This document shows, one piece after another, positions 1-54,490 of a stretch of 64,000 bases of DNA (position 1 is the first letter of the stretch; every line of letters begins with the position of its first letter). This stretch comes from Bryum argenteum (Eukaryota; Streptophyta; Bryopsida; Bryales; Bryaceae). The notes under the pieces were generated by a model. That model saw only the letters and a list, made by a program, of their open reading frames with translations. It did no database searches and was not told the DNA's origin. Position numbers and translations under genes: made by a program. The DNA is taken from the NCBI GenBank assembly GCA_037043015.1, contig CM073328.1:607409-671408 (forward strand), read 5' to 3'.

Positions 1-1332
1 GCAACTTGATATGTTACAGACTCTTAAAAACCTCAACATCAAAAGATATACACAAAAACTATAGGTTCAGTTTGAAATACGCTCGTTAGCATCATCTATA
101 TGTTCAGAAAGTAAGATACCCTCTCTTCTTCAAATGAACATCACGACTTCATACTAACTCCAATTGGAATACTCAATAGTTTCTTACAAAAGCAAACTCA
201 AAATACACAAACCCTTAAATTCCATGCTTAGAAACGCTTTTCACATAACATAGTAACTTCTCAAAGTCACGGTTAACAAAAACACAAGGCAACAAACCAC
301 CTTGCATTAAATAGAGCGTTGCTCCTTCCTCACAAAACACATAAACGCACCAAACACCATTTTCCAAGCTTACTTACAACATACTCAAAACTTAACAAAT
401 TTCTCACAAAACTGAAAACACAATACACCCCCAAAGCCAGCAGCTCTTAATGGAAAGGAGAGAGAGAAAAAGAGAAAGAGGGGGCCATCAAGGCCCATAC
501 CATGCCTATGTGGCATTCTCATGTCATTGGACTGGATGGTCACCCCCGTAGCTCCTTATCACTCATTATCTCCTTGAACTAATGAAAACACCTGCTTCGT
601 TAAAAGTGCTCATAGGCATGTGCACTTTTTTTGTTGTAAAATACGTTTTCTCTAGAAACGACCTACAAAGTGGTAACTTTTTTGGATATTGTCTGTATAA
701 CTTATGGCTTTTCACTTGTGTAGCTTTTTCATAGTGTGCTATTAAACATGCGATTGCTCTCACATTTTTAATTTAGAGGAATTTACATTTCCTGAAACTG
801 AGAATTTAGAGGCAGAAATTTTGAGATTTGTAAAAAACATTGAATGCGTATGATCTGATAAATTATATTATTTTCCTTAACTTGATGTTGTATTCATTAC
901 TGTTACTTAGTTTATATATAAATATTTGCCTCTCATGTACAACTGCTATGAAGCGATTGTGTAATATTCTCGATATGTCATTGCTTGCATGGATACATCA
1001 AATTACTAACGTGCCTCATTGATTCAAAGTAGGCCTATTCTACTTTCATTGATAGTCTAGGTTTTCTTGCTTCAAAGCTCTTATCGGACATGGGCACATG
1101 CCTACCTCAAACTATATTCTTCTTTTGTACTTTTGGTGTTTGAAATTTTTGAAAGTGAAGTCATCACTATTATAAGACTTCTATGAAATAACAACATTCA
1201 AATACATAATAAATACAATAAATTCAAATTAGTTTATTTAAAGGAAATTGCAACACACGTACATATTTATATAACCAACATAAATTGAAATGATTCTACA
1301 TAATACAAGCTCTATCATTTATGTAGAATCTA
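1..1332. other. AT-rich spacer at the outer (3') side of the decayed minus-strand transposon gene
   Basis: I see no convincing gene here. Short open frames at 566-763 (minus) and 840-1022 (plus) lack recognisable domains. Two degenerate versions of the palindrome found in the arrays further right occur near 614-626 and 1090-1108 (GGCACATGCCTACC), so the mobile-element sequence probably extends at least this far left. No terminal inverted repeat could be assigned. Confidence 0.4.
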
Positions 1333-4300
1333 CTATGTTGAATTTGGTAAATTCAAACTAAATGGATCTCTGTCTGATGGATATACCAAAGCATTCTCCG
1401 CAAATTCCGTTGCTACGTTTACACCAACATCAACTTCACCAAGTTCCCTTGCAGTTAATTCCGAAGTATTATGATACGACAGTAAGTCAGTGGGGGTATA
1501 AATGAAAGAACATTCATTCAGGCACTTGGTGATTCTTTGCGTGTATACCAATGATTACTATCAAACCAAAGTTTAAAAGCAGAAAAATAACGGTAACCAT
1601 CTTTATTTATATCTTGATTTTCCGGAATTTGGGAAGTGGAAACGTGAAAGGAATGTTGAGAAGAAGATCCTCCAACGCCTCCGACTCCTCCAACACCTCC
1701 AACGCCTCCGACTCCTCCAACACCTCCAACGCCTCCGACTCCTTCAACACTTCCAACGCCTCCGACTCCTCCAACACCTCCAACACCTCCAACTTCTTCA
1801 ACTCTCCCAAATTCTCTAACTCTTCCAACGCCTCCTACTCCTCTAACACCTCCAACTTTTCCAACTCTTCCAACTCCTTCCATGTTTGTAATGTTAACTG
1901 CCGTATTTGTACCTTGAAGATTAGGTGCATTACTTGATTGCTTACGCATCTTCTTCGGTAGAGGAGTGCAATCTTCATCACTGCTCTCGATACTTTCATC
2001 GATATCATCGGATGAAGAGTCGATTTACATATCTATCTAAAGCGGTTTATCTCCATCTTCCGGTGAAACTTCCATCTACCGTTTCCGCTTTCCACTTGCG
2101 AAGCCAAAGGTTCATGTTCTCGTCGGATTCAAATAAAACAAAATGTGTTGTTTAGCCAGCTAAAGCATAAATCATATGAAATTCCAATACCAATAATCAT
2201 CCACGAATCCGATCGAAAATACGATGAAATGATTTCATCTACAACTGCTGGACACTGCGCATCGCAGTACTTTAAACACATATCCCAACCATTCAAAGGC
2301 TCCATAAATGAAGAATCAAGAACCTGAACATCCTCGGCAAAATTATCCGCAATTGATGTTGTTGGTGGATGATGCATTACAAAAAAAATCGGACCTAGTG
2401 GAGTGTATTTTGCAATCACTTTACCACAATCTTTTATTGTTTGTCCATGCTCTTATGTTTGTGGAGCAAAAGCATAAGTACCTGTAATAATATGTCATCC
2501 TGGTGAGTTCAACACACCTAATGCAGAAATCACCACCTCTGCATTCTCACCAGCTGGAAGCATGAAGATTGCGTTCCAATGCTCAACATCACCCGTCTAG
2601 GTCGAATTTTTTTGGATGATAGACTTGTAGTCAACCTCGGTCCAAAAAAGTCTATTTAGACCCTTTCGACAATCAAAAGTCTATAATGCAGGGCGACAAA
2701 ATATTCCGTTTCCTTCAGCGAATACGGATCCACCGACTTTCACCTTCGTCTCCAGACCTGCAGCCCGTTGACCTTCTCCAAAATCGAACTCCATTATCCA
2801 AGCTCCATCTTCACCATCAGGAAAAATCTCTTTTCGATTAGCAAATAAACCAAGTTTTCCTTCCAAAATCAATTTCACGTGATTCTGAATCTTGAAAGGT
2901 ATTAAAGACTTGTATTCAGCCATAGTCTCGAATAAAGTCAAGTTCTTAATGTGCATCCAGTTCTTTTTGAACTCATTCGTGACATCGCGCCCAAAAAAAT
3001 CAAATGTTTTCTTGTCTCTATACTGTGTAATCTCACGATCCAACTAATTTTTTCTCTCTTGTATTCCACCTGTTGCTTCAGTGTCAAGCCATCGCATAGC
3101 ATTCTGAACCCTTGCACGAAGTTTTGAATTCTCGGCCCAAGCATACAATGTGTGTGGAATAGGATCAACACTTTTTGGACCAAAATAAACTTTTTGATCC
3201 ATACCTGCTGCGGTTACAGTAGCTCCTTGGCACAATACAATAAAATCATTTGAAGTAGTCCCTTGCAAAGGCCTTAACCATGTAATGACCATACGCTTAC
3301 GTTCATAAGTCTTGGATTTCTTGTGTTTTGCTTTGACTCCTTGTAACTCGTAAACCTTATTTTTTTCGGAAAAATATGTGAACTCATGATCATATGCGTT
3401 ACACATTGTCTTCAAAGCCATCTAGCAGTCATCATTGACTGTTGCCATAGAAATATAGTCTCTAAATAAAAGATTCGTCTTCTGAACAGATAGTTTTTTA
3501 TCTGCATTGTCGAGGCAACTACTTGTAATGCTAGGTAAACATTGAAGAACTAAACGCGTCTTCTCCACATCTTCATTGTTGTACGGATTAGGTGAGCCAA
3601 ATTCTTTCCAAACCATACGTATCTTCTCAAGGGTTTCCCCTATCGTACTATGGTACTTTCGCATTGTATTTTCCTCGTTTTTCTTGTACGATGCCACTAG
3701 ATAGTTCAATTCTTCATTGTACACTACAATCAATGCTGGTCGCTTAGTAAACAAGCTTCAAAACTCTTCATCCGATAGTATACCAAGTATCCAATCCTTC
3801 TCTGCTAGCACTTGACAAGCATGTAAGATATGTTGACCATCAACGGGTTCCCATGTCACAAGAGGTAAAAACTTTTCTCTTTTTTCTTGCGGAGTATTGT
3901 TTGGTATCAAGTCAAGGCATTGCACAAAATCACTCCTACTTTCTCCTTTTGTGAATAAGTATGGTTCTGAACTCTCTCCAAAATCATTCATAGGTGGTAC
4001 ATAGTGCATTGATCGTAAAGTCATCATATTTGCTTCAGGAAACTCATTTTCTCTAAGTCTCTTGTAAGTAGAGTTTGCATTTGCAACATTTAGCATTCGT
4101 TGATTCGTTAAAATGTTGCTTGCTGGTCGTATCTTTGCAACATCTACTCCAAATGAGAAATCTTTTCCAAATACAAATCCAGAATCGATTTCGTTTTGAG
4201 TTGGCAACATTAATTCATCATCCTTGACAGCTTTCTTTAGAGTAATACCAGCATAAAGAAGCTGATTAGTGTTCCCACGACTTTGCAAAGACGGTTGTAT

Positions 4301-5013
4301 AGTTTCAACAAAATCATACTCTGTTAATCCTTCATTCTCACGTCCAACTTGTGCTCCACCTTGAATTTCAGATAATCAAGAGTTTCTTCTTTCTTTTCTC
4401 TTATTAGATTTGGAGCCAACCGACGATGGAGTTGATGATAATTCTGCAAATCTAGAAGCATCTCGTGCGGAAACAAACGACAGTCCATACATTATAGGAT
4501 CATCGGCGGCCAATACTCCGGTTTCATTTGATGATGATCCCGTCCCGTGCATTCCCCTTTTGTACTCTTCCATATAAATCCTCAATTTCTCAATTTCCAA
4601 TTCGCTCATACTTGTCACAGACATCACAATCCTTTCACGCAATTCTTCTTGATGAATATTAATACTCTCTCGCCATTTTGAATATTTCGCAAGTCCGGTG
4701 AATCGCTTTCCAGAGTAATCTATATAACGGTCAATGTTTTTGGTTTTCAAGATATATGATGAAGGCTCATCTTTACTTGAGCCGCGCAGAAAACCTCGCA
4801 TAAGCCTTCACCATCCGTTGGAGCAAGCTTAGCAATCTTGATTACTTTGCCAACAAAATTCGTCAACCCGCACTAAAGGTCCTTGTTTAGCCATGCATAT
4901 TCCGAGATATGCAGAATTGGTATTTTTTCCACTCAAGACAACCACCATCCATGACCCTTGAAACTATCCACAGCCACATTGGAAATATTTGGTGATTTTT
5001 GGCTCTCCATCAT
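1333..5013 (-). pseudogene. Decayed transposon gene: ParB/DGQH-like protein with possible methyltransferase-like C-terminal half
   Basis: One reading frame runs from 4801 to 2129 (about 890 codons) with no frameshift but interrupted by in-frame stops at 4376, 3758, 3422, 3044, 2681, 2597, 2495 and 2453, and finally 2129. An N-terminal piece begins at ATGATG (5013), right after an AG acceptor, and needs frame changes to reach 4801. After 2129 the frame shifts into an acidic, Lys/Arg-rich tail, a Gly-Val repeat (1518-1949) and a final segment ending near 1333. Around 3790-3850 the protein has VTWEPVDGQHILHACQ followed by a KRPALIVVYNE strand; this resembles the DGQH core of ParB-like domains. 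Towards 2130-2500 hydrophobic strands around GPIFFVMHHPP and a late glycine-rich strand faintly resemble a beta-class DNA methyltransferase; that part is inference. All stops can be explained by C-to-T (or G-to-A) changes. It is divergent from the DUF7869-type gene at 9391 and faces the palindrome array. I do not recognise a named family for the whole protein. Confidence 0.6.
1668..1880. repeat. CTCCAACAC-type 9-bp minisatellite inside the decayed gene
   Basis: A stretch built from degenerate 9-base units (CCTCCAACA and close variants) is open in more than one frame. On the minus strand it encodes a Gly-Val-Gly-Gly-Val run, on the plus strand Ser/Asn/Thr-rich peptide. It lies within the C-terminal extension of the decayed minus-strand gene and is probably a repeat expansion in a low-complexity linker. 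Confidence 0.75.
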
Positions 5014-5071
5014 CTACCAAAAAAAATGAAAAAAAGAAAAGTATTAGCTTCAAATTTTACTAATACAAGGC

Positions 5072-5885
5072 AGGCATGTGCCTACCCTTCACCCTTTGCA
5101 CTCACAAAAACAAGTTCGAAATGAAAATACGGTAGGCATGTGCCTACCCTTCACCCTTTGCACTCACAAAAACAAGTTCCAAATGAAAACACGGTAGGCA
5201 TGTGCCTACCCTTTACCCTTTGCACTCACAAAAACAAGTTCGAAATGAAAACACGGTAGGCATGTGCCTACCCTTCACCCTTTGCACTCACAAAAACAAG
5301 TTCCAAATGAAAACACGGTAGGCATGTGCCTACCCTTTACCCTTTGCACTCACAAAAACAAGTTCGAAATGAAAACACGGTAGGCATGTGCCTACCCTTC
5401 ACCCTTTGCACTCACAAAAACAAGTTCCAAATGAAAACACGGTAGGCATGTGCCTACCCTTCACCCTTTGCACTCACAAAAACAAGTTCCAAATGAAAAT
5501 ACGGTAGGCATGTGCCTACCCTTCACCCTTTGCACTCACAAAAACAAGTTCGAAATGAAAACACGGTAGGCATGTGCCTACCCTTCACCCTTTGCACTCA
5601 CAAAAACAAGTTCGAAATGAAAACACGGTAGGCATGTGCCTACCCTTCACCCTTTGCATTCACGGAAACAATTTCTAAATGAAAACACAGTAGGCATGTG
5701 CCTACCCTTCACCCTTTGCACTCACAAAAACAATTTCTAAATGAAAACATGTTAGGCATGTGCCTACCTTTCACTCTTTGCACTCACAAAAACAAGTTCT
5801 AAATGGAAACACAGTAAGCATGTGCCTACCCTTCACCCTCTGCACTCACAAAAACAATTTATAAATGAAAATACAAAAACAAATT
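5072..5885. repeat. 13-copy, 62-bp tandem array carrying an 18-bp palindrome
   Basis: The sequence AGGCATG recurs at 5072, 5134, 5196, 5258, 5320, 5382, 5444, 5506, 5568, 5630, 5692, 5754 and (as AAGCATG) 5816, exactly 62 bases apart. Each full unit contains GGTAGGCATGTGCCTACC, an inverted repeat with 8-bp arms and a 2-base centre, then CTTCACCCTTTGCACTCAC and an A-rich link. Middle copies are nearly identical and the right-hand copies are more diverged. The array starts about 60 bases upstream of the ATG at 5013, so it occupies the promoter or leader of that gene. Similar palindromes recur at 8280-9360 in front of the divergent partner gene. Confidence 0.95.
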
Positions 5886-5939
5886 CTAAAAGAAAACACT
5901 CAGTTTCTTGAGAAATACCTCATGCGTAAATGAATTTCA

Positions 5940-6780
5940 AGAGCCTCTACCGGAAATTCAGGTTTATCTTCTCTTGATCGATTGCTTTCAAGGAAACCCA
6001 AACCTCAAAAGCGAAATTCTTCAAATTGGGTCAACCTTCTATGAAATTGGTAAGAACTCTCGGTCAAGCTTCTCATATGTCCAGCCGTTGCTACCGTCCA
6101 GAGACAATATTGTTGAGTGGTACGTGGACCATACAAAGATCTCCAGTGAGATCCGATGAACCAACTCCTCCTCATCTTTCATTCAAAATGTAACAGAAAA
6201 TTTCCATTGATTGTATGAATATCATAACGTGCGAAATGATAGCAAGACTTTGGTCATAACATCTAGAGCAAGATGACTTTTTGTAGTGTTGCATGTCAAC
6301 AGGAAAAATGAAGGAGTTAGTTCGAGGGAAGGGCTACTTACTTCTTATGAGCAGGCCAGTGAGCTATCAACAGCAATGTGATGCCACTCTCCTGCAAATT
6401 CTTCTACAAGTTTTCCTCTCCGTGTGCACTCACTGCTGATGTGCATTCATCCAGAACAGCATACCTGATCTACAAAAAAAAATCCAAATTATGTGAAAAG
6501 TCCTCTCCTGGACCATAAATAGCACGTGGTCGAATCGCGCAAGTGTACAATTTCTTTCCTTTCCTATCTCTACGAAAGAATGCAAGATCATATCCGAGTT
6601 AAACTCTGCTAATCGCATAAAAGTTTACCGAAGTTCGATCGAATACAAAAAAAGTCACGACCTGTGGAGTTGCACACTCAAAGACGACAACTCGGTAAGA
6701 ATCTTGTACGAGCCCAGAGGGTCCTATGATGAGGCAACAGACATTCCGATTGATACAAGCACAAATACAAGAAAGATGCT
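5940..6780 (-). pseudogene. Exon fragments of a peroxisomal ABC transporter (subfamily D, PXA1/COMATOSE type)
   Basis: Read on the minus strand, four pieces of one nucleotide-binding domain appear in order. A degenerate Walker A (CLIIGPSG, about 6700-6750) has lost its GKS. A possible PGE signature remnant lies near 6490-6510. An exon at about 6341-6469 carries the Walker B YAVLDECTSAVS, an internal TAG, and SGITLLLIAHWPAH, where the usual H-R-P of the H-loop has become H-W-P. The C-terminal segment with LDGSNGWTYEKLD is at about 6060-6122. The middle exon is bounded by a T-rich AG acceptor and a GTAAGT donor, so this was copied as genomic DNA, not from mRNA. It lies beside an unrelated 3-beta-HSD exon in the same orientation, which suggests capture by a mobile element. 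Family match is firm, non-functionality is near certain. Confidence 0.75.
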
Positions 6781-6881
6781 GATATGCATAGAAACACGTG
6801 GTTGTTCCTCCTGAGTCGCAATAAAGATAAGAGGTTTGTTTGCCTTAGATTTTAAACTCTGCGTAGGATGATACGATGGAA

Positions 6882-7042
6882 CTCACATTAAAGGCCGCCC
6901 ACTGTTTCGGATGACTAGTTGCTCTGCAAGTGCCTTGCTTCGCCCATAAGGGTCAACGTGCTTCTCGACTGGATAGTAAGGCAGATTTTCTGTACCGTTG
7001 AGAATTTCCTGCCCGCCGTACACAACATTGTAAGTGCTCGTA
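6882..7042 (-). pseudogene. Isolated exon of a 3-beta-hydroxysteroid dehydrogenase/decarboxylase-type SDR
   Basis: The minus strand encodes TYNVVYGGQEILNG, then PYYPVEKHVDPYGRSKALAE and QLVIRNSGRPL. These are typical of plant sterol-4-alpha-carboxylate 3-dehydrogenases (extended SDR family), including the catalytic Y-x-x-x-K as YGRSK. The exon starts after an AG and ends at a consensus GTGAGT donor, so its splice sites are intact, but no other exon of the gene was found. It sits directly upstream, in the same orientation, of ABCD-transporter fragments, which argues for a captured fragment. The parent protein would act on sterol intermediates at the ER. Confidence 0.75.
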
Positions 7043-7460
7043 TATCGTAGTCACCGCAGATCGTTGTTGAAGACGAAATTGTCGAAAAAGAAGAGCACTA
7101 GTAGTAAGCCAAAGTTGAAGAAGAAGAAGAAAAGGAAGGGGGCAAACGAGTCGGAACATGCTTTGAACAATAGGGACAACGAGACTGGACGACTAGATTG
7201 TCCTCGCGGCAGAACTTTACTGTAGAAGCCCTTCCATATTCACGGCGAGATTGTGGACGAAACGCACCTTCTTGCAGCAGATGACGAATCTGATAAACAG
7301 GTGCTCATCAAGACGAAGAAGCTCAAGGTACTGGAGTACTGAAGAAGCCGAAGGTACTGGAGTACTGAAGAAGCCGAAGGTATTGGAACAACGTGGAGAA
7401 AGCAACGTGCAAAGCAACCCTCTCTCTTCGACTGTCCAGAGATTGAAACAGGAATTAAGG
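7043..7460. other. Unrecognised stretch, probably more captured sequence, with a short 30-bp repeat
   Basis: Plus-strand frames here give Lys-rich peptides (7034-7225) and an acidic stretch with GEIVDETHLLAADDESD near 7240-7300, but I cannot assign them. A degenerate direct repeat of about 30 bases (GAAGAAGCCGAAGGTACTGG) occurs from about 7320 to 7390. It lies next to the captured exons and may come from a third host gene. Confidence 0.3.
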
Positions 7461-7753
7461 TTAACCTAACCTAACTCATACCTAATTCTTAAAAGTAAAA
7501 GTGTAGCCGCCACAAATAAGGGCAAAGTCACTATGTGAAGGTGCTCCTAGCAACTATAAGAGCATACGAAGTCATAGTTCATTTATTTTCCAATTGATGA
7601 GTGTGATGGTTGGTCATGAACATTCCATCCCGTGGAGTTTTAAAAACATCCGGTTGGTTCAAATCAAAAATAGAAATCATGCATAGTTTAAACTAAACGA
7701 AGTCGAAGTATTATCCAAATTTTGTTAAGGTAACATTTTAACCCGCAACTTCT

Positions 7754-8193
7754 ACTACCATAACACCATAGCTGGTTCGTTATCTGCCGAACGAATAATT
7801 ATTTTTTTTGAAAAAATAAGGTTCATTTCTCGCAAATCGAATTTTAAAAAATTCGTCTCTATATTTTTAGAGAAAAAAAAATTCGGGGTTAAGAAGGGGG
7901 TTTATTTGTGGATGGAGCTTCATAATGACAAGACTAAGCAAGACTTGAAATCAGTAGATTTGGCAGCTACATCAGTGGGGCCACAACATAGATTAGTCAT
8001 TTACACATTTTTGGAGGGCGGCAGAATAAGTCCACAATCCTCCAGAATCATTATACTCTATTTTCTCAATTTTCGGTTTATATTGAGATTATTTTTCCTG
8101 AAGTTTGTTCTTGAAGGCATAGAATTTCCGTTTTTTTTCGTTTGTTATTTTTGGAATTATTTAAGAACGAACCAGCTATGGTGTTACGGTAGT
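7754..8193. mobile_element. Small non-autonomous TIR element (MITE-like, 440 bp)
   Basis: Terminal inverted repeats of 28 bp lie at 7754-7781 (starting ACTACCATAACACC) and 8166-8193 and differ at a single position. The interior is AT-rich and has no transposase. I could not establish a clear target-site duplication, so the superfamily is unassigned. An open frame at 7906-8217 covers much of the interior but has no recognisable domain. Confidence 0.8.
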
Positions 8194-8254
8194 TCAACAT
8201 TGGATTTCTATTTTTAAATACACTTTTCACTTCAATCATTAATGTAATTTATGA

Positions 8255-9360
8255 TCTATGTTGAAATTATTGAAGCCCGGTAGTTAAATGCCTACCCCGC
8301 CTTCAATAATTGACTATTTTGTAAGTTCCGTGAAGGGTAGGCGCATGCCAACCCCTATGGAATTTGGTGACTTGTATTAGGGATTTCGGATTGCGTTGTA
8401 GCGTTGTACCGAGTCTTTAAGGTCTTGAACATTATTTATTCTCTACTTGTTGAATTATTGTGGTATGCGCGTGCCTACGAATTTAGAATTTAATCTCTTG
8501 TATTTGCAATATGTCAAGCAAGTTGTACCCATTTTGGAACTTCTACCTAGAAAATTAACCATGTTGAAATTATTAAAGCCCGGTGGATACATGCCTACCT
8601 CGCCTTCAATAATTGAATATTTTGTGAGTTCCGTGAAGGGTAGGCACATGCCAACCCCTATAGAATTTGGTGACTTGTATTAGGGATTTCAGATTGCGTT
8701 GTAGCTTTGTACCGAGTCTTTAAGGTTTTGAACATTATTTACATTATTTTCTTTAATTTTCTCAAATTATTGAATTATTGTGGTATGCACTTCCCTACCT
8801 TGCCTTCAATAATTTTTTTATTTGTAAGTTATTTGTAAATTTGTATAAGGAGTACGCATATGCCAACCTCAATAAAATTTAGTCGCTTGCTTCTCGTTTT
8901 TTTGCTAGAGTCGTACCCTATCTGTTACTCTTTTGAACTCTTTTTACCTGAAATTTTATTTTTATATATCCATATGTTTCATCTAAGGTAGATAGGCACG
9001 CGCCTACCCCGCTTTCAAGAATTGTATATTTGTATGTTCCATTAGGCTTAGCGGCATGCTTACGCTTATAAAAATATTCACTTATATTTGTGATCTTTCA
9101 TCGTAGTACCGACACTTTATAACTCTGTAACATCATTTATTTTACAATTAGTGAATGGGGAGTGGATTCAAAATTCACAACTCCCTCAACAATTATATAT
9201 TTGTAAGTTACATGAAGGATAGGCACATGCCCACCCTTATAGAATTCGTTGACTTGAATTTGGATTTATGGCAACTTCGTTGTTACTTCTTTAACATGAA
9301 TCTTCATATTTGTACGTTCACATGTTCTATCAGAGGTAGGCACATGCCTTACCCCTTACT
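8255..9360. repeat. Degenerate long repeats with variant palindrome GGTAGGCACATGCC(A/T)ACC
   Basis: A segment of roughly 190 bp at about 8261-8450 is repeated about 302 bases downstream (8563-8750), and a poorer third copy follows. Within and between them lie many versions of the palindrome seen at 5072-5885: around 8290, 8335, 8464, 8590, 8638, 8785, 8855, 8990, 9210 and 9335. The block ends about 40 bases before the ATG at 9391 of the DUF7869-type gene, mirroring the array in front of the minus-strand gene. Confidence 0.85.
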
Positions 9361-9390
9361 TGTTTGACATTCAAATATTTTTATGCAGAT

Positions 9391-11591
9391 ATGAATGGGG
9401 CTTTACGTTGTAGTCTATCTTCGGGTGGTGGCCCTAATTCAAGTGGAGAAGGATCGGCATCGGTTAGAACATGGTCTGAATTTGAGAATTCAAAACTTGT
9501 TTCTCTATTTAATATTGATGGCACAAAGGTTGCTCATGGTGTGTTCGAAGAAGTGAGAGTTGGAAGTATTGTTGGAGGTCGTCCAATACGAATTATAGAT
9601 GAAGTAGTTTGTGTGAAGAGCATTTTAGATGGAAGTGCACATGCGTACGAATCACACATGGCCAGAATGGAAGAGTGTTTGGACAGAATTATAAAGTGGC
9701 CTAGGTCTCAAGTAAAGGAAATGAGGCCGAATCCACCTTCCAATCCGGGGCAAAGACTTCCTTACCTACAACCATCAATTCCACAGGAAAGTCAAGTTGG
9801 AAACAACAATAGTACAATATTTCCAAGGTTTGTACACTCATTGGACAGGTTGCCTTCATCTCCTAAAAAAAACTCATACATTTTTAGGAATCGCAAACAA
9901 AAAGCTACAAAAGGTGTCCGAATCATTGGAGTTGAGAGAAAGGAGACGGTGACATTGGCGGCGGTCACCTTTGCAAAAGAACAAAGAATTTGCTCAAAAT
10001 GGTGTTTGGCTTCAATCGATTCGTTTGATATCTTATCTCTACGCTATCAAGCTTGGAAAAGTAAAGATTACAAACAAAGAGCAACTTGGTTACTCACTAC
10101 CTTGAGGGCATTCAAGGTAACTTCTTTAGAAAGGCCGGAACAATGCAAATTTGAGACAAATATTTGTGGAAGTCCGGTTTGCAATAGTTGCTTTGCGCTA
10201 GCCATTGGATATTGCAGTAAAAGATTGACCAAGATCATATCTAATATTCGAGAAATAGATATGTATGAAGCTATCCATGGTAACAGAGGTAGCCGTCGAT
10301 AAACATCGCATATATTCATGGCAAGGGCAAAATTTGAATCATACATCAATATATTTGGTGAAACACTCCCCATAGGCAAGTTTGCCGAAGAAGTAATGAA
10401 GTAATTCTCCCTGTAGTTTGTTTGCCCATGAGTGTACGTCGCCAAGAAGTATGGACAATAATCAACTCCACACTTGTTCGAATGGGAGAGAATCAAATAG
10501 GGTTGTTCACTTTTTCTAAAATGTGGAGAACTGAATTTCCTAATGTGCATGTTCCGGCGGAGTCAAGGTTTTCAAAGTGCCAACATTGTTGGGAATACAA
10601 AGAAACTCAAAAATCGCTATCCAACGAAGCAATGAAGGAAGCCGTTGATACATCCTATTGTCTACATTTAGATTTGGCCATAGAAGAGCGGAAAGAATCT
10701 ACTCAAGCAAGATTGGCTGCAATAGAGAGCCCAGATGAGAGCATGAGTATAATTATTGATGGAATGGATCAAAATACAACGTACGTGCGAAAAGTCAAGC
10801 AAAATGTGAAAGGAGTTGAGTCCCGATACGTGAAGACTCATCTATGTTTTGTATTGGTGCATGGAATAGGACTATATTGTCATGTGTGAGTGGATTCTCA
10901 TCACAAACACGATAGCAACCAGGAAGTAACATCAATCATGAAGGTTATCCAAGATGTGAAACGGCATCGAGGTAAATTACCTCCGCTTCTTCGCATTCAA
11001 GCAGATAATTGCGGAAAGGAAAATAAGAATATATATATATGCTTCCAATGTGTGCAACATTGGTTGCATTGGGTTTTTCAAGGAAATCCAATTATCTTTT
11101 TTGATAGTTGGTCACACTCATGAAGATATTGATCAACGTTTCAGTTTCATATCTTGAGCATTGAAGCGACAAGATATCAATAGTCTTCAAGAATTGTTGG
11201 AATGTGTTCGTGAAAGGCCAACACATACGAAGCCTTTGTGCGTGCCGAGCACTTGGAGCACATAAGAGATTGGAAGGAATTTATTACTCCTTATTCCAAA
11301 TCAGATGCATTTGTTGGTATTAGTCAACCTCATCATTTTTTATTTTATATGCGGAACAATAAGCCTCATGTCCAATATAAGAGTTACGCAAGAATCCCTT
11401 TGTGGAAGCCAGAAAATAGACACGAGTGCCTTCACTCCGTTCCTCCAATTGAGTCCGAGGTAATATTCGCTCAAGTTCACCATGCGGATGATAGGGAATT
11501 GCGCGCACTTCAAGATTTCATCCACTTGAAAGAACGACATATTTCAAGAGTATTAGAATTAATTAAAATGTGCAATATAATTTTGAAGTGA
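9391..11591 (+). pseudogene. Decayed DUF7869-type, transposase-like protein gene
   Basis: The ATG at 9391 follows a TTTTATGCAG acceptor, so a leader intron is likely. The N-terminal part (9391-10302) ends in a TAA but the same frame continues with MARAKFESYINIFGETLP. A frameshift near 10398 leads into LPMSVRRQEVW, then a Zn-ribbon-like FSKCQHC (about 10565-10590), a QADNCGKENKN motif near 11000 and, after another frameshift, GHTHEDIDQRFS (11110-11145). A further segment (11238-11591) contains a WKEFI...GISQPHHFLFY region. The order Cys pair, D-N...EN, GHTHEDID, then a late WxPE-like region is what I know from DUF7869 proteins, which recur in repetitive eukaryotic families. The conserved acidic residues suggest an RNase H-like fold, which is inference. 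Inactivating changes include TGA at 10887, TGA near 11152 and at least three frameshifts. Confidence 0.75.
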
Positions 11592-11629
11592 CTCTTGAGA
11601 ATCAAGGTAAATAAGAAAGAGACCATCTA

Positions 11630-11990
11630 GATAGACGGATAGGAACTCCGATTCCTTTCTAAGGGGCCGACGTGAATGAAGTGTCCGTTCGTAATGCTAA
11701 TATTCCAATGGCCACGTGACAAGGGGAAATTGGAACAATACTACTTCCCCCTCTCGAGGGTGAACACTATAACTACGCTAGTTTCTACCTAGTTACTAAT
11801 GCCTTGAAGATTCTTGACGTAGTATCCCTCCAAAGGGCTTTGAGGTACCTATACAACAAGGTCCAAGGACCCCCCCACAATAGTTGGGTGGACTATAGTG
11901 GTGAGCACCATGCCGGCATGGGGAGTAGAACCCTCGACCTCCTCATTAGGGGCCATGAGTCCTAACCACCAAGCCAAGGCCTGTGGTGCC
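11630..11990 (-). mobile_element. tRNA-derived SINE, full length, with perfect 13-bp target-site duplication
   Basis: The direct repeat AAGAGACCATCTA occurs at 11617-11629 and again at 11991-12003, exactly bracketing a 361-bp element. On the minus strand the element begins GGCACCACAGGCC and then has an A-box-like TGGCTTGGTGG and a B-box-like GGTTCTACTCC about 44 bases apart. That is the layout of a Pol III tRNA promoter. The body is homologous to the copy at 55715-55991. It sits just beyond the end of the DUF7869-type gene, so the SINE landed in an existing mobile element. Confidence 0.88.
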
Positions 11991-12003
11991 TAAGAGACCA
12001 TCT

Positions 12004-12315
12004 ACAACTACCATCTTCCATGTAGCTCATTATAATTGTTGATACAAAAGCCTATATTTATTATTTGAGGCATGTTGTTTTTTTTTGTGTGTGTGTGTGA
12101 GAGTGAGTAACACTATGATATTGGGGACCGCCGATTGGATTGTAGTCAATGAGGTGTCGTTGCAAGTAACATTTTTTTTTGTAGAGGTGTCTACAATGCT
12201 CCGATCGCAATTTCCGGCGAACGGTTCTTGAGATATTGAATTTCCAAGTATCTATGTCCCGAGAAATATTGGAAATTATTTGTATGAGGGTGGCAACGCC
12301 GCGGAGGCATACTAG
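12004..12315 (+). mobile_element. Helitron-type 3' end
   Basis: The stretch ends GTGGCAACGCCGCGGAGGC followed by ATACTAG and then T (CTAG at 12312-12315). GTGGC-AAC-GCCGC forms a 5-bp stem with a three-base loop about 11 bases before a CTRR terminus, and the next base is T as expected for insertion between A and T. This is the usual 3' signature of plant Helitrons. No Rep/helicase gene and no TC 5' end could be placed, so the element's extent is unknown. Confidence 0.65.
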
Positions 12316-13341: not shown

Positions 13342-15374
13342 GCCACTTTGACTTGAGAGCTCTCAGCGAGCGTTCTCTCCGCTGCCGCCTCTCTTTGGAG
13401 CTCTTCATCACCGATTGCCTTTCGCCTTCAGGTACGCTACATTGCAATGCTCATGACGCATTGACGCTGAGGGTGCGAGGTTCTGTATTGCGTGCGATTT
13501 TTTTTGCTTCGTTTTCCACGGTGGGCTAGACGGGTTGCTAGAGCGATGTCTGCATGCAGTAGAGTTGTGTTTTTAAATTTCTAGTAGGGTAAGCTGGGAG
13601 GTAGGGTTTTTGCTCACCGCGGGTGGTGCGGACTTCAAGTTCTACGACTTGAGGGGGTTGTGTCTGTCTTTTCGACGGACCGGTGTGGCGCGGCTCAGGG
13701 AGAAATTTAGGGTTTTCCCTGAGCCGCCGGGGCGCTCCGAGTCTGCGTGTGGGAGTTGAAATGGGGGCGGGGGGTGTGTGTGGCGTAGCTGCTGGTGTTC
13801 GGGACTGAGGTGTGGTGGTCGGTGTTTGCAGATTATCCAAGATGGGTAAGGAGAAGGTTCATATCAACATCGTGGTTATCGGCCATGTCGACTCCGGAAA
13901 GTCGACGACCACGGGCCACCTTATCTACAAGTTGGGAGGAATCGACAAGCGTGTGATCGAGCGTTTCGAGAAGGAGGCGGCCGAGATGAACAAGCGTTCG
14001 TTCAAGTACGCGTGGGTGTTGGACAAGCTGAAGGCCGAGCGCGAGCGTGGTATCACGATCGATATCGCCCTGTGGAAGTTCGAGACCGTGAAGTACTACT
14101 GCACCGTGATCGACGCCCCCGGACATCGTGATTTCATCAAGAACATGATTACGGGAACGTCGCAGGCTGACTGCGCCGTGCTGATCATCGACTCGACGAC
14201 CGGAGGTTTCGAGGCCGGTATCTCGAAGGACGGGCAGACCCGCGAGCACGCTTTGTTGGCGTTCACCCTGGGAGTGAAGCAGATGATCTGCTGCTGCAAC
14301 AAGGTGAGGGGGCCGAATGCGTGTTTGGATTGATTTGCCGTTTGCAGTCGTAGATGGGGAGTCTTGTCGGGTGGGAGGTTAGAAATGGGGTGGTGTGGTT
14401 CGGGTAGATGTGGGATGGTGTAGAGGGCGGATGATTCGGATGTGTTGGATGGTCGAGGGATGTGTGCTGAATACGTGGGGATGATTGTGCAGATGGACGC
14501 GACCACCCCGAAGTACAGCAAGGCCCGTTTCGAGGAGATCAGCAAGGAGGTGTCCGCGTACCTGAAGAAGGTGGGATACAACCCCGACAAGATCCCGTTC
14601 GTGCCCATTTCCGGGTTCGAGGGTGACAACATGATCGAGAGGTCGAGCAACCTGGACTGGTACAAGGGCCCCACCCTGCTGGAGGCTTTGGACAACGTGT
14701 CGGAGCCCAAGAGGCCGTCCGACAAGCCCCTGCGTCTGCCCCTTCAGGATGTCTACAAGATTGGAGGCATTGGAACTGTGCCGGTGGGACGTGTGGAGAC
14801 GGGAGTCATCAAGCCCGGTATGTTGGTGTGCTTCGCACCGACGGGACTGACGACTGAGGTGAAGTCCGTGGAGATGCACCACGAGTCGATGCCCGAGGCG
14901 CACCCAGGAGACAACGTGGGATTCAACGTGAAGAACGTGGCGGTGAAGGACCTGAAGAGAGGATACGTGGCTTCGGACTCGAAGAACGACCCCGCCAAGG
15001 AGGCTGCCAACTTCACGGCGCAGGTCATCATCATGAACCACCCCGGACAGATCGGCAACGGTTACGCGCCGGTGCTGGACTGCCACACTTCCCACATCGC
15101 TGTGAAGTTCGCCGAGATCTTGACGAAGGTGGACAGGCGATCGGGCAAGGAGCTCGAGAAGGAGCCCAAGTTCTTGAAGAACGGAGACGCCGGGTTCGTG
15201 AAGATGATTCCGACCAAGCCCATGACGGTGGAGACGTTCGCCGAGTACCCCCCTCTGGGTCGTTTCGCCGTGCGTGACATGAGGCAGACGGTGGCTGTGG
15301 GAGTTATCAAGGCTGTGGAGAAGAAGGAGCCGACCGGTGCCAAGGTGACCAAGGCCGCGGCCAAGAAGAAGTGA
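13342..15374 (+). CDS. EEF1A: Translation elongation factor 1-alpha (eEF1A)
   Basis: Two coding exons, 13842-14303 and 14493-15374, give a 447-residue protein, the usual plant eEF1A length. eEF1A delivers aminoacyl-tRNA to the ribosomal A site with GTP hydrolysis in the cytosol. The G1 loop GHVDSGKS, the [13 protein letters not shown] switch region and DAPGHRD (G3) are intact. The G4 motif NKMD is split by the intron precisely between Lys and Met. The C-terminus is [11 protein letters not shown] leader exon ends at a consensus donor near 13430 (TTCAG/GTACGC) and the leader intron ends at the TTTGCAG before ATTATCCAAGATG, so translation starts at 13842. The in-frame upstream start at 13812 lies inside that intron. 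Codon use is strongly GC-biased, as expected for a highly expressed gene. The gene looks complete; the start given here (13342) is an approximate transcript start. Confidence 0.97.
13431..13831 (+). promoter_or_regulatory. eEF1A leader intron with telo-box-like motifs
   Basis: This is the intron in the 5' leader, common to plant eEF1A genes and often expression-enhancing. It holds two copies of the telo-box core on the plus strand in reverse form: TAGGGTTTT near 13602 and TTTAGGGTTTT near 13706. Telo boxes are typical of eEF1A and ribosomal-protein genes. The effect on expression here is inferred. Confidence 0.6.
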
Positions 15375-43161: not shown

Positions 43162-45179
43162 TTAGAGCGATGACCAGATGGGCATGCCGGGCAAACTCTC
43201 GCCACCATCCACAACAAACGTGTTGCCAGTGATGTAGTGCGAGTCATCACTTGCAAGCAACAGCACAACGGATGTCAAATCTGGATCCGCGCTTCCCCAT
43301 CTCCCTGCCGGCACCCGCTTCCTCGCCACCGTGTTCAGCCAATCCTTCTCGAACAGGCTGTTTGTGATCTCTGATCGGAACAACCCTGCCGCTATGGCGT
43401 TCGAGCGTATGTTGTACACCCCAAGTTCGAGCGCCAGCATCTGTCAACCCCCCACCACCATTCTCAAATCATCAAAAACCACCACCCTTTCTCTCCTTTG
43501 TGGATCCACTCAAACATGTGATAGTAGCTTGAAAGGATATCATGTGACTGCTTGGAGCTTTCAATCTGTGTCCACTATAAGGAATAGATTATAAACTTGG
43601 GATCTTGGACAGAAAGTATCAAAGAACACCACCTCTTCTCTACTTTGTGATTCCACTAAAACATGCAGGTAGTGATAGTAGGGTCAACATTGCAGCTTGA
43701 AAAGAAATTATATGACTGCAAGGAGCATTCGATCTGTGTCCACTATAAGTAATTGAGTATGGAATTGAAACCTTGGACAAAAATCATCAAAGAGCACCGC
43801 CTTTTCTGTACTTTGTGGATTCACTAAAACATGTGATAGTAGGTCAACATTGAAGCTTGAGAGGATGTTATGTGACTGCAAGGAGCTCTCGATCTGTGTT
43901 AACGAAATGGGGTAGAGTATGGTTGGAGTAGGGACCTTGGACAAATGGACGATGGCGGCCTTGGACACGGAGTACGCCATGCCACCAGGCAACAAGCCTC
44001 TCTCAATGCCCCCGATTGACGAGATGTGGATGATGGAGCCTCCTCGTTTCGCGGCTGCCAATCGCTTGGAAACGGCCTTGGACATGAGCCATGTGCCGCG
44101 CACGTTCGTGTTGAAGATCCCATTCCATTCGCTTTCCTCTTGGTCCAACGGCGTCCTCAATGGACCTGAACAACAATGGATAACAATCTAAGCATTTTAG
44201 AAGCGAACGTCTCCAGTAATACGAAGGTGTTAATTCTTCCACAGAAGGTTCCATGATGAACGACATTGTTCAAAGAGACAATCTGAACGAGGCAATACAG
44301 TGATTCAGCGTCGTCCGAACATTCATATGCCTCAGACAGTAAATCCGGAGAAGCAAGCGAATGTTCGACCCAACTTGTCGATCAGGTGCCGGTTCTGAAT
44401 GCATAATGACTCCAGTGGGGTTCGAAGACAATATGATTCCAGCAACAGACGTCTCTAAACAAGTTGTAACTGAACCTTACAGTAACTAGAGGCAAAGCGA
44501 TTAACGATACTACGAACTTGATTCGAATACATGCACTTAAATTCACTGTTATAGCAATCAAGACCACCGCCGTGACCTCGGTCCACCTCTGTAAGTACTT
44601 ACCCTAGCTTTGAATTCAAAATCATTTTCCCGCTTCTCAAAAATAGGAATCGGCAATCGGTTTCAACATCGGCAAAGAAATGGCAATCGGCATCAAAATC
44701 AGCAATTGGGATCGGCAATTCGTATCCCAATCGGCAACAAGAATGGCAATCAATATCATAATCGGCAATAAGAATTGGCAATCAGTCCTCGGTGAAGATT
44801 GAATGCAGGGCTTCGAGTGATTGGAGAAACGATTATTGGAGACATTGCGAGAGAGCTATGACGAGATTACGGTACCTCGCAATCCAGCGTTATTCACAAG
44901 GACGTTGATGTAGCCGAAAGCGGTCCACGCTTTCTCAACGGCGGCGTCGATGACGGCCTCGCCGGCGCTCACGTCGACCTCGACGGCCACCGCCTTCCCT
45001 GATCGGCCTGTCTCGGTCGCGGCGGCGTTAATCTCGTCGCAAACGGATTGTAGCATGTGCTTGCGTCGCGCAGCCAGGATTACATTCGCCCCGTTCTTAG
45101 ACAGCGCGAATGCAAACTCCTTTCCCAACCCCGACGAAGCCCCTGTGATGAGCGCCACTTTCCCTTCCAGCTCCGCCAT
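43162..45179 (-). CDS. Classical SDR oxidoreductase, copy A (At3g55290/At3g46170-like)
   Basis: Three exons, 44876-45179 (304 nt), 43936-44165 (230 nt) and 43162-43440 (279 nt), encode 270 residues. This is a classical NAD(P)-dependent short-chain dehydrogenase of the plant group annotated as 3-oxoacyl-ACP reductase-like or glucose/ribitol dehydrogenase-like. Its substrate is not known from sequence. The Rossmann glycine motif [12 protein letters not shown], the catalytic Ser in ISSIGG and YSVSK (Y-x3-K) are all present. The C-terminus [10 protein letters not shown] is characteristic of the group. Splice sites are consensus: CGAG/GTACC, TTCAG/GTCC, CCAAG/GTCC and GACAG/ATG. Its paralogue at 56955-57991 has identical exon lengths. 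Intron 1 holds a degenerate ATCGGCAAT-rich repeat (44640-44785). Intron 2 holds a threefold repeat that includes copies of the splice donor region. Confidence 0.93.
43455..43935. repeat. Threefold repeat of about 150-170 bp in intron 2 of SDR copy A
   Basis: CTTTGTG followed by ATTCACT/ATCCACT and AAAACATG recurs at about 43496, 43643 and 43811. Each repeat is preceded or followed by CTTGGACA, the complement of the real exon-2 end TTGTCCAAG/GT. The tandem duplication therefore copied the 5' splice site, and at least one copy (about 43770-43785, TTGTCCAAG/GTTTC on the minus strand) still looks usable. Confidence 0.75.
44640..44785. repeat. ATCGGCAAT-type simple repeat in intron 1 of SDR copy A
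   Basis: Degenerate copies of (A/T)TCGGCAA, alternating with GGAAT or AAAAATGGCAATC, fill about 145 bases. They have no coding value and simply lengthen the intron compared with the paralogue, whose first intron is 142 bases. Confidence 0.7.
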
Positions 45180-53806: not shown

Positions 53807-54340
53807 GATTCCCTGCTCTATAGACACCAAATATCGAGTCCGGCACTTCACGAATTCCGGATCCTACACCATCGCAATGCACGCTCTCCAAGGTTTACTC
53901 TGACACCAAACTTGTCCTGTTATCTAAAATGCTCAAAAAGCTTCATATGCCTCAAAATTGCTCTGATCTTCTTGGAACCTCTTTTAACTGCACACGCTTT
54001 TCGAGATGATCGATGAAGGAAAGCTTCTTCAACAATCATCGCACATTCTATATTGATTGGCGGAGTTTCCGCCAAGGAAAGTCGGGATGAGACGAGGAGA
54101 AGTGGAGAAGCTGGAGATGAGCTGCAGTGCGTCCATCGGTCGGTAGTCCGATCCGGTGACCGTTAGACGGGGGTGAAACGTTAGATGGTCAAGGGTCGCG
54201 GTTTGAATTCGGCCTATTGCCGTGGTCAGCGTACGGATATAGGGGAGCATTTAAACTGCGACGCATTTAATATCAGTCCGTTGCAGTAGGCTGTCGGCTA
54301 TTCGGGAACTTGGCTTGAGCAAGAAGTGACTGGAGCGAGG
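53807..54340. other. Upstream region of DNA ligase IV
   Basis: This is the probable 5' UTR and promoter of the minus-strand ligase gene. No clear TATA box is visible. An open frame at 54029-54250 (minus) has no recognised domain. Confidence 0.35.
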
Positions 54341-54490
54341 GAAGTCTGGACTTGGGGCGAGGGAAGTCTGGATTTGGGGCGAGGGAAGTCTGGACTTGAG
54401 ACGACGGAAGTTTAGACTTGGGGCGACGGAGGTTTAGACTTGGGGCGACGGAGGTTTAGACTTGGGGCGACGGAGGTTTAGACTTGGGGC
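54341..54490. repeat. 22-bp minisatellite, 7 copies
   Basis: Copies of GAAGTCTGGACTTGGGGCGA begin at 54341, 54363, 54385, 54407, 54429, 54451 and 54473 (period 22). The left copies are of the type GAAGTCTGG and the right copies of the type GAGGTTTAG. It lies about 550 bases upstream of the ligase IV start codon. Confidence 0.92.

Follow-up and report, generated by a model that had tools for sequence, protein, structure and literature searches.

Two decayed genes that point away from each other, each lying behind palindrome-rich DNA, raise the question of whether they belong to a single mobile element and, if so, what the second protein does beside a transposase. The window analyzed here is a stretch of 64,000 nucleotides (contig C8, bases 607409–671408) belonging to a genome of 258.8 Mb in 25 contigs, which was searched for further copies; ten of these contigs measure between 7 and 44 Mb. 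The window contains a decayed, right-truncated copy of a large two-gene DNA transposon of plant type (Table 1), and the two-gene transposon family that it represents is real.

Table 1. Features of the copy in the window (window coordinates), followed by members of the subfamilies (contig:position).
Feature	Position	Strand	Remark
Left terminal inverted repeat (AACACCTGCTTCGTTAAAAGTGC...)	587..622	+	Matches right ends of other copies at 86% across 36 bp
TAGGCATGTGC, palindrome core of the arrays, inside the left terminal inverted repeat	motif at 615	+	
Minus gene: decayed ParB-like + methyltransferase-fold protein	1333..5013	-	Outer limits from the first-pass annotation; 3' end ill-defined
TFDCRKG at the methyltransferase motif IV place, DCR replacing DPPY	2660..2680	-	Fold match
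WEPVDGQH motif, ParB-like domain	3830..3853	-	
Tandem array upstream of the minus gene, 13 units (62 bp) with GGTAGGCATGTGCCTACC	5065..5871	.	
Insertion of 0.43 kb nested in the copy, inverted ends of 28 bp, not the element's own	7758..8189	.	Missing from the C8 copy
Looser repeats, forms of the array palindrome, upstream of the plus gene	8280..9360	.	
Plus gene: decayed, 3'-truncated; likely DUF7869 DDD transposase	9391..11543	+	
Truncation junction of the window copy	11543..11544	.	Other copies continue with the transposase frame, then the right terminal repeat
Subfamily F1	Window copy; close copies C6:10164128, C8:194948, C3:1496124, C7:12866973, others		
Subfamily F2	C9:12423212, C3:4176333, C3:19509758, C3:25942869		
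Subfamily F3	C2:11848503, C9:10795268, C9:15868678		
Subfamily F5	C5:21308077, C6:4522464		
Subfamily F6	C2:26169361, C7:7431920, C1:30959991		

The left end of the window copy is shared by three other copies and, counting itself, the segment 587–780 is matched 28 times across the genome. The minus gene can be followed from 4807 to 2681, through the WEPVDGQH motif, in a single frame with five stops and no frameshift, and shows 26% identity to protein P0001 over positions 4132–2180 (tblastn, E 4e-59). Inspected by eye, its stops (4376–2681) fit C-to-T changes at CpG or CHG sites, as after methylation silencing. The plus gene, starting at 9391, carries IDGMDQNT (10755–10778), RIQADNCGKENKN (10992–11030) and GHTHEDIDQ (11110–11136). 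Both decayed, diverging genes are thus confirmed, together with the motifs quoted in the first-pass annotation. The right end has been lost: the compared copies diverge from the window at 11543 or earlier, those followed beyond the junction have additional transposase frame and a right end, and the window has no correctly oriented instance of the right-end word. Since homology to the other compared copies stops at 11543, positions 11544–11591 are foreign DNA, open by chance. The span of 1333–11591 initially given to the element is thereby corrected, with the start moved to 587, the end of homology set at 11543 and the segment 7758–8189 recognized as a nested insertion. The inverted ends of this insertion are 96% complementary and, with flanks suggestive of a TA duplication, it may be a Tc1/mariner-type MITE. 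Elsewhere in the window, an open frame at 13809–14333 looks by eye like a plant-type EF-1-alpha, and tandem repeats with units of 168 bp and 22 bp lie at 43526–43899 and 54331–54490, respectively. The genome is presumably that of a plant, perhaps a moss. A tRNA-derived SINE suspected by eye on the minus strand (~11850–12000) was discarded, with 0 ARAGORN hits in the window and 0 Rfam hits in 11500–12300.

Matching of the DGQH piece against the genome gave at least 119 matches (150 of 151 candidates scored), while the first and second pieces of the plus gene gave at least 131 (130 of 251 scored) and at least 150 (150 of 662 scored), respectively. The 119 and 131 matches were merged into 110 DGQH loci and 122 transposase loci, fragments included. 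A transposase locus lies within 25 kb of 80 of the 110 DGQH loci, in divergent orientation in 79 cases and convergent in one; with the transposase loci randomized on the same contigs (200 trials), chance pairing reached a mean of 2.97 and a maximum of 8. The matches of the second plus-gene piece were left out of the pairing, so that partners may be missed for some of the unpaired loci (30 of 110 and 41 of 122, respectively). Chance neighbors, or a second element nested in the first, are ruled out by the 79 divergent pairs among 80. The two genes thus do occur together in other copies, and the proposal that they form one element, which the first-pass annotation had tied to their co-occurrence, is upheld by the pairing and by the inverted ends, target-site duplications and intact frames described below.

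The subfamilies listed in Table 1 are our own grouping by the identities of the DGQH-piece matches, with no tree involved. The search for intact copies recommended at the outset led to the C5 element (12,951 bp), in which both the partner (1395 aa) and the transposase (1121 aa) are open. The C2 element (16,025 bp) has a transposase frame of 1081 aa, a partner frame of 1055 codons and, upstream of the latter, an additional frame of 281 codons that is perhaps a separate exon; both genes are broken in the C8 element (12,250 bp). The open frames of the C5 and C2 elements indicate that the family was active not long ago. Three other loci (C4:22812433, C3:12188640 and C3:24847093) carry the F1 left end (82–85% over ~140 bp) with no DGQH match within 20 kb, and are possible non-autonomous relatives.

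Alignment of copies, also recommended in the first-pass annotation, located the ends of the element where homology between copies stops. The ends read AACACARTATTGAGG... in F3, AACACCTGCTTC... in F1 and AACACGCAATTAAGC... in F5, and the terminal inverted repeats measure ~28–47 bp, varying by subfamily and copy pair, inside the range of Sola elements (11–1124 bp). They are flanked by 4-bp target-site duplications, exact in seven of nine copies and with a single-base difference in the other two (F1: AATC, TAAG and ATAA exact, one copy ATTA versus ATAA; F3: TTAT, ATAT and ATAT, all exact; F5: ATAC exact, one copy TAAA versus AAAA). The hallmarks of CACTA/EnSpm elements are CACTA ends and a 3-bp duplication; the AACAC ends and 4-bp duplications seen here place the family outside that group.

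The DUF7869 profile (PF25273) scored 171.7 and 179.7 bits in two copies, well over its curated cut-off of 26, with the window piece alone under it at 20.5 bits. The three DDD residues are conserved in the readable alignment rows (D507 in 32/32, D589 in 31/32 and D629 in 31/31), and the model of the protein shows an RNase H-like fold (mean pLDDT 69.8, pTM 0.49), in line with the transposase-like character first attributed to it. Judged from fold and residues, the DUF7869 protein is likely a DDD transposase. The same catalytic core, with DGMDQ, DNCGRENKN and GHTHEDIDQRFS, is found in two DUF7869 proteins of Mytilus (P0029 and P0030). By sequence the transposase matched nothing in NCBIfam or the PDB, and the term DUF7869 was not found in the literature searched, as might be expected of an unnamed superfamily other than Sola marked by this domain. 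We regard such a superfamily as doubtful, given that size, DDD residues and 4-bp duplications fit Sola, and that a Sola1 element with the same type of partner on the opposite strand has been published (PMC12477816). Membership of the Sola superfamily is most likely on the basis of anatomy, and the initial label of the element as undescribed was too strong, its ends, duplications and DDD residues fitting that published superfamily (PMC10741241).

The model of the partner protein shows a ParB-like fold (ParB/Srx) and a beta-class N6A/N4C DNA-methyltransferase fold (mean pLDDT 61.4, pTM 0.48). The ParB-like nature first proposed for the minus protein is therefore retained at the level of the model, but that description was incomplete, as it left out the methyltransferase fold; structure prediction thus returned both the ParB-like and the RNase H-like folds on which the first-pass reading depended. 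Longer ParB structural matches, which bear on the helix-turn-helix and CTP-dependent clamp of the ParB family proper, span residues 72–415 of the partner, but with an rmsd above 10. WEPVDGQH is nearly invariant in alignment A1. The ParB family proper carries the nucleotide motif GERR at the place that DGQH occupies here. A DGQHR motif together with a ParB/Srx fold has been described for GmrS (PMC4619093). Searches of 12 members up to an E of 10, with filters that drop most weak matches, listed no Pfam ParB or methyltransferase profile, PF01555 included; the PDB yielded weak sequence matches only (best E 0.046), and the best PHROGs match (E 0.0018, one of 12 members) was to a family without function. 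A TNP1/DUF8039-like domain, suspected by eye in terminal parts of the two proteins, had no Pfam support.

Beta-class methyltransferases are recognized by the signatures (D/N/S)PP(Y/F/W) at motif IV and GxG at motif I. The motif IV place is occupied by DCR instead of DPPY in 12/12 relatives of the partner, and GxG is missing in 11/12, with P0005 alone keeping GLG. This pattern suggests that the methyltransferase is probably catalytically dead. An active N6-adenine or N4-cytosine methyltransferase marking its own transposon DNA, as proposed for algal ParB-methyltransferase accessories, is improbable in view of these replacements and of the missing PF01555 match. The combination of folds could also bring to mind what remains of an integrated virus or plasmid carrying a ParB partition gene, since a survey of the ParB fold reports phage proteins fused to an N6_N4 methyltransferase and describes such fusions as frequent in phages (PMC12704722). 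Scans of IMG/VR (21 and 51 pattern matches) gave no relative of either protein and a scan of a prokaryote genome collection, for the partner only (22 pattern matches), gave none of the partner, each scan using two peptide patterns, so that distant kin could escape. With the inverted ends, the 4-bp duplications and the presence of two long frames only in the copy read fully, a viral or plasmid origin becomes extremely improbable.

The palindromes reported at first beside both genes are indeed there. The units of the array upstream of the minus gene match at 94%, looser copies of its palindrome stand at 8643, 9222 and 9339 on the plus-gene side, and the segment 4808–9390 contains 21 near-palindromes of 16 bp versus a mean of 7.5 and a maximum of 14 in 40 first-order random resamplings. 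The arrays of the window carry GTAGGCAnnTGCCTAC, and units in other F1 copies range from 62 to 296 bp; one arm position is unmatched in the palindrome form that prevails in the C8 copy and in two more F1 pieces. The F2 units carry GTGGGCAnnTGCCCAC on the partner side (58–61 bp plus one of 118 bp) and a much less perfect palindrome on the transposase side (61 bp), and those of F6 (164–227 bp) carry TGAGGCAnnTGCCTCA on the partner side and TGTGGCAnnTGCCTCA on the transposase side. The partner-side forms keep a constant center while their arms covary, as selection on a symmetric site would produce, with a weight limited by the few independent arrays. Near-palindromes were counted in 18 pieces, each against 40 resamplings, and exceeded the resampling maximum in the window, four F1 pieces, three partner-side F2 pieces and F5 (16 versus 13, without a repeated word). 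Four F6 pieces were over the mean but not over the maximum (4 versus 5, 3 versus 4, 7 versus 7 and 7 versus 7), and the maximum was not exceeded in F3 or in four transposase-side F2 pieces, the latter at or under the mean. The array palindrome is absent from the two distant subfamilies F3 and F5, and a single array motif common to all subfamilies was not found. Between the genes of the C5 element, an F5 copy, there is a GC-rich array of 7.2 units of 28 bp (element positions 6159–6359), unlike the F1 palindrome. We regard the arrays as putative binding sites.

The core motif is also placed ~28 bp inside the F1 left end, which has an inverted repeat of its own (AAAAGTGC...GCACTTTT). TnpA of En/Spm is a structural transposition cofactor, and a partner of this kind, pairing the ends and regulating only secondarily, would suit such a motif placement. 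We find this unlikely, as most sites lie between the genes, away from the ends, and the right end of the C8 copy has none of the listed motif words within 100 bp.

The reading that we favor, and hold to be rather probable, is that of a decayed, right-truncated cut-and-paste transposon of 12–16 kb, most likely Sola, whose second gene encodes a partner with a replaced methyltransferase motif that sits on the element's own palindromes and shields it from silencing. In this scheme the DUF7869 DDD transposase would act on inverted ends starting AACAC, generating 4-bp, mostly AT-rich target duplications. The partner, built of a ParB-like domain and, after it, a beta-class methyltransferase fold with its catalytic motif swapped for other, strictly conserved residues, would recognize as a dimer the palindromes of its own element, both in the arrays at the two gene starts and at the core in the left end. 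Staying or spreading there, it would leave the shared promoter region and the ends accessible, most likely because host silencing is kept off them, much as VANC does for the VANDAL elements of Arabidopsis, which are Mutator-like; the partner may organize the ends for transposition as well. Arrays and partner protein would then co-evolve from subfamily to subfamily. That the partner acts on the element's own palindromes is what we infer as probable. More tentatively, land-plant transposons might have converted a ParB-methyltransferase fusion of prokaryote type into a sequence-specific clamp, its methyltransferase dead, that loads onto the transposons' own parS-like palindromic arrays and counters host silencing, with protein and palindrome co-evolving and the invariant DCR marking a new use of the fold.

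The "unknown" domain DUF7869 thus gains a likely job, as a DDD transposase probably of the Sola type, and the range of ParB-methyltransferase accessories widens beyond algal transposons to take in a plant-type genome that holds 110 loci or pieces. The subfamilies offer a natural series of protein/palindrome pairs that allows tests of transposon self-recognition, and, should the methyltransferase have lost its activity with no variation at the former active site, it would clearly exemplify a pseudo-enzyme retained by a mobile element.

Sola elements have a DDD transposase and 4-bp duplications, measure mostly 2–9 kb with some above 15 kb, and are present in the moss Physcomitrella and seemingly uncommon in flowering plants (PMC10741241). 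The present family shares with them the transposase type, duplications, inverted ends and size, a likeness of anatomy; it differs by its second gene, which does not figure in the available part of that description. VANC proteins, the anti-silencing proteins of VANDAL elements, are likewise accessories of a plant DNA transposon, and their targets are often tandem repeats varying between related elements, although neither a ParB nor a methyltransferase fold is named for VANC in the accessible text (PMC5735166). The phage fusions contain the identical domain pair, but are of phage or prokaryote origin and have no clear sequence match to the present partner, and transposons and plants are not mentioned in that survey (PMC12704722). 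A further close system is Sola1-1_Ec32 of Ectocarpus, an element of 21.5 kb with a 1104-aa ParB-like and N4C/N6A methyltransferase protein opposite the transposase strand (PMC12477816), the sole paper recognized on eukaryotic ParB-methyltransferase transposons among the matches listed. A ParB-like partner for a transposase, presented as new in the first-pass annotation, had thus a precedent in an alga. Both elements are large and have their ParB-methyltransferase partner on the opposite strand; as described in the part available, and compared by description, the algal case is one family whose methyltransferase is predicted to modify DNA, whereas the present family comprises 110 DGQH loci or pieces in several subfamilies, with divergent orientation in 79 of its 80 close pairs, DPPY replaced by DCR and palindromic arrays in three subfamilies. 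With Sola and the algal ParB-methyltransferase already published, the kind of element is known, and the variant described here is new as far as the searches show.
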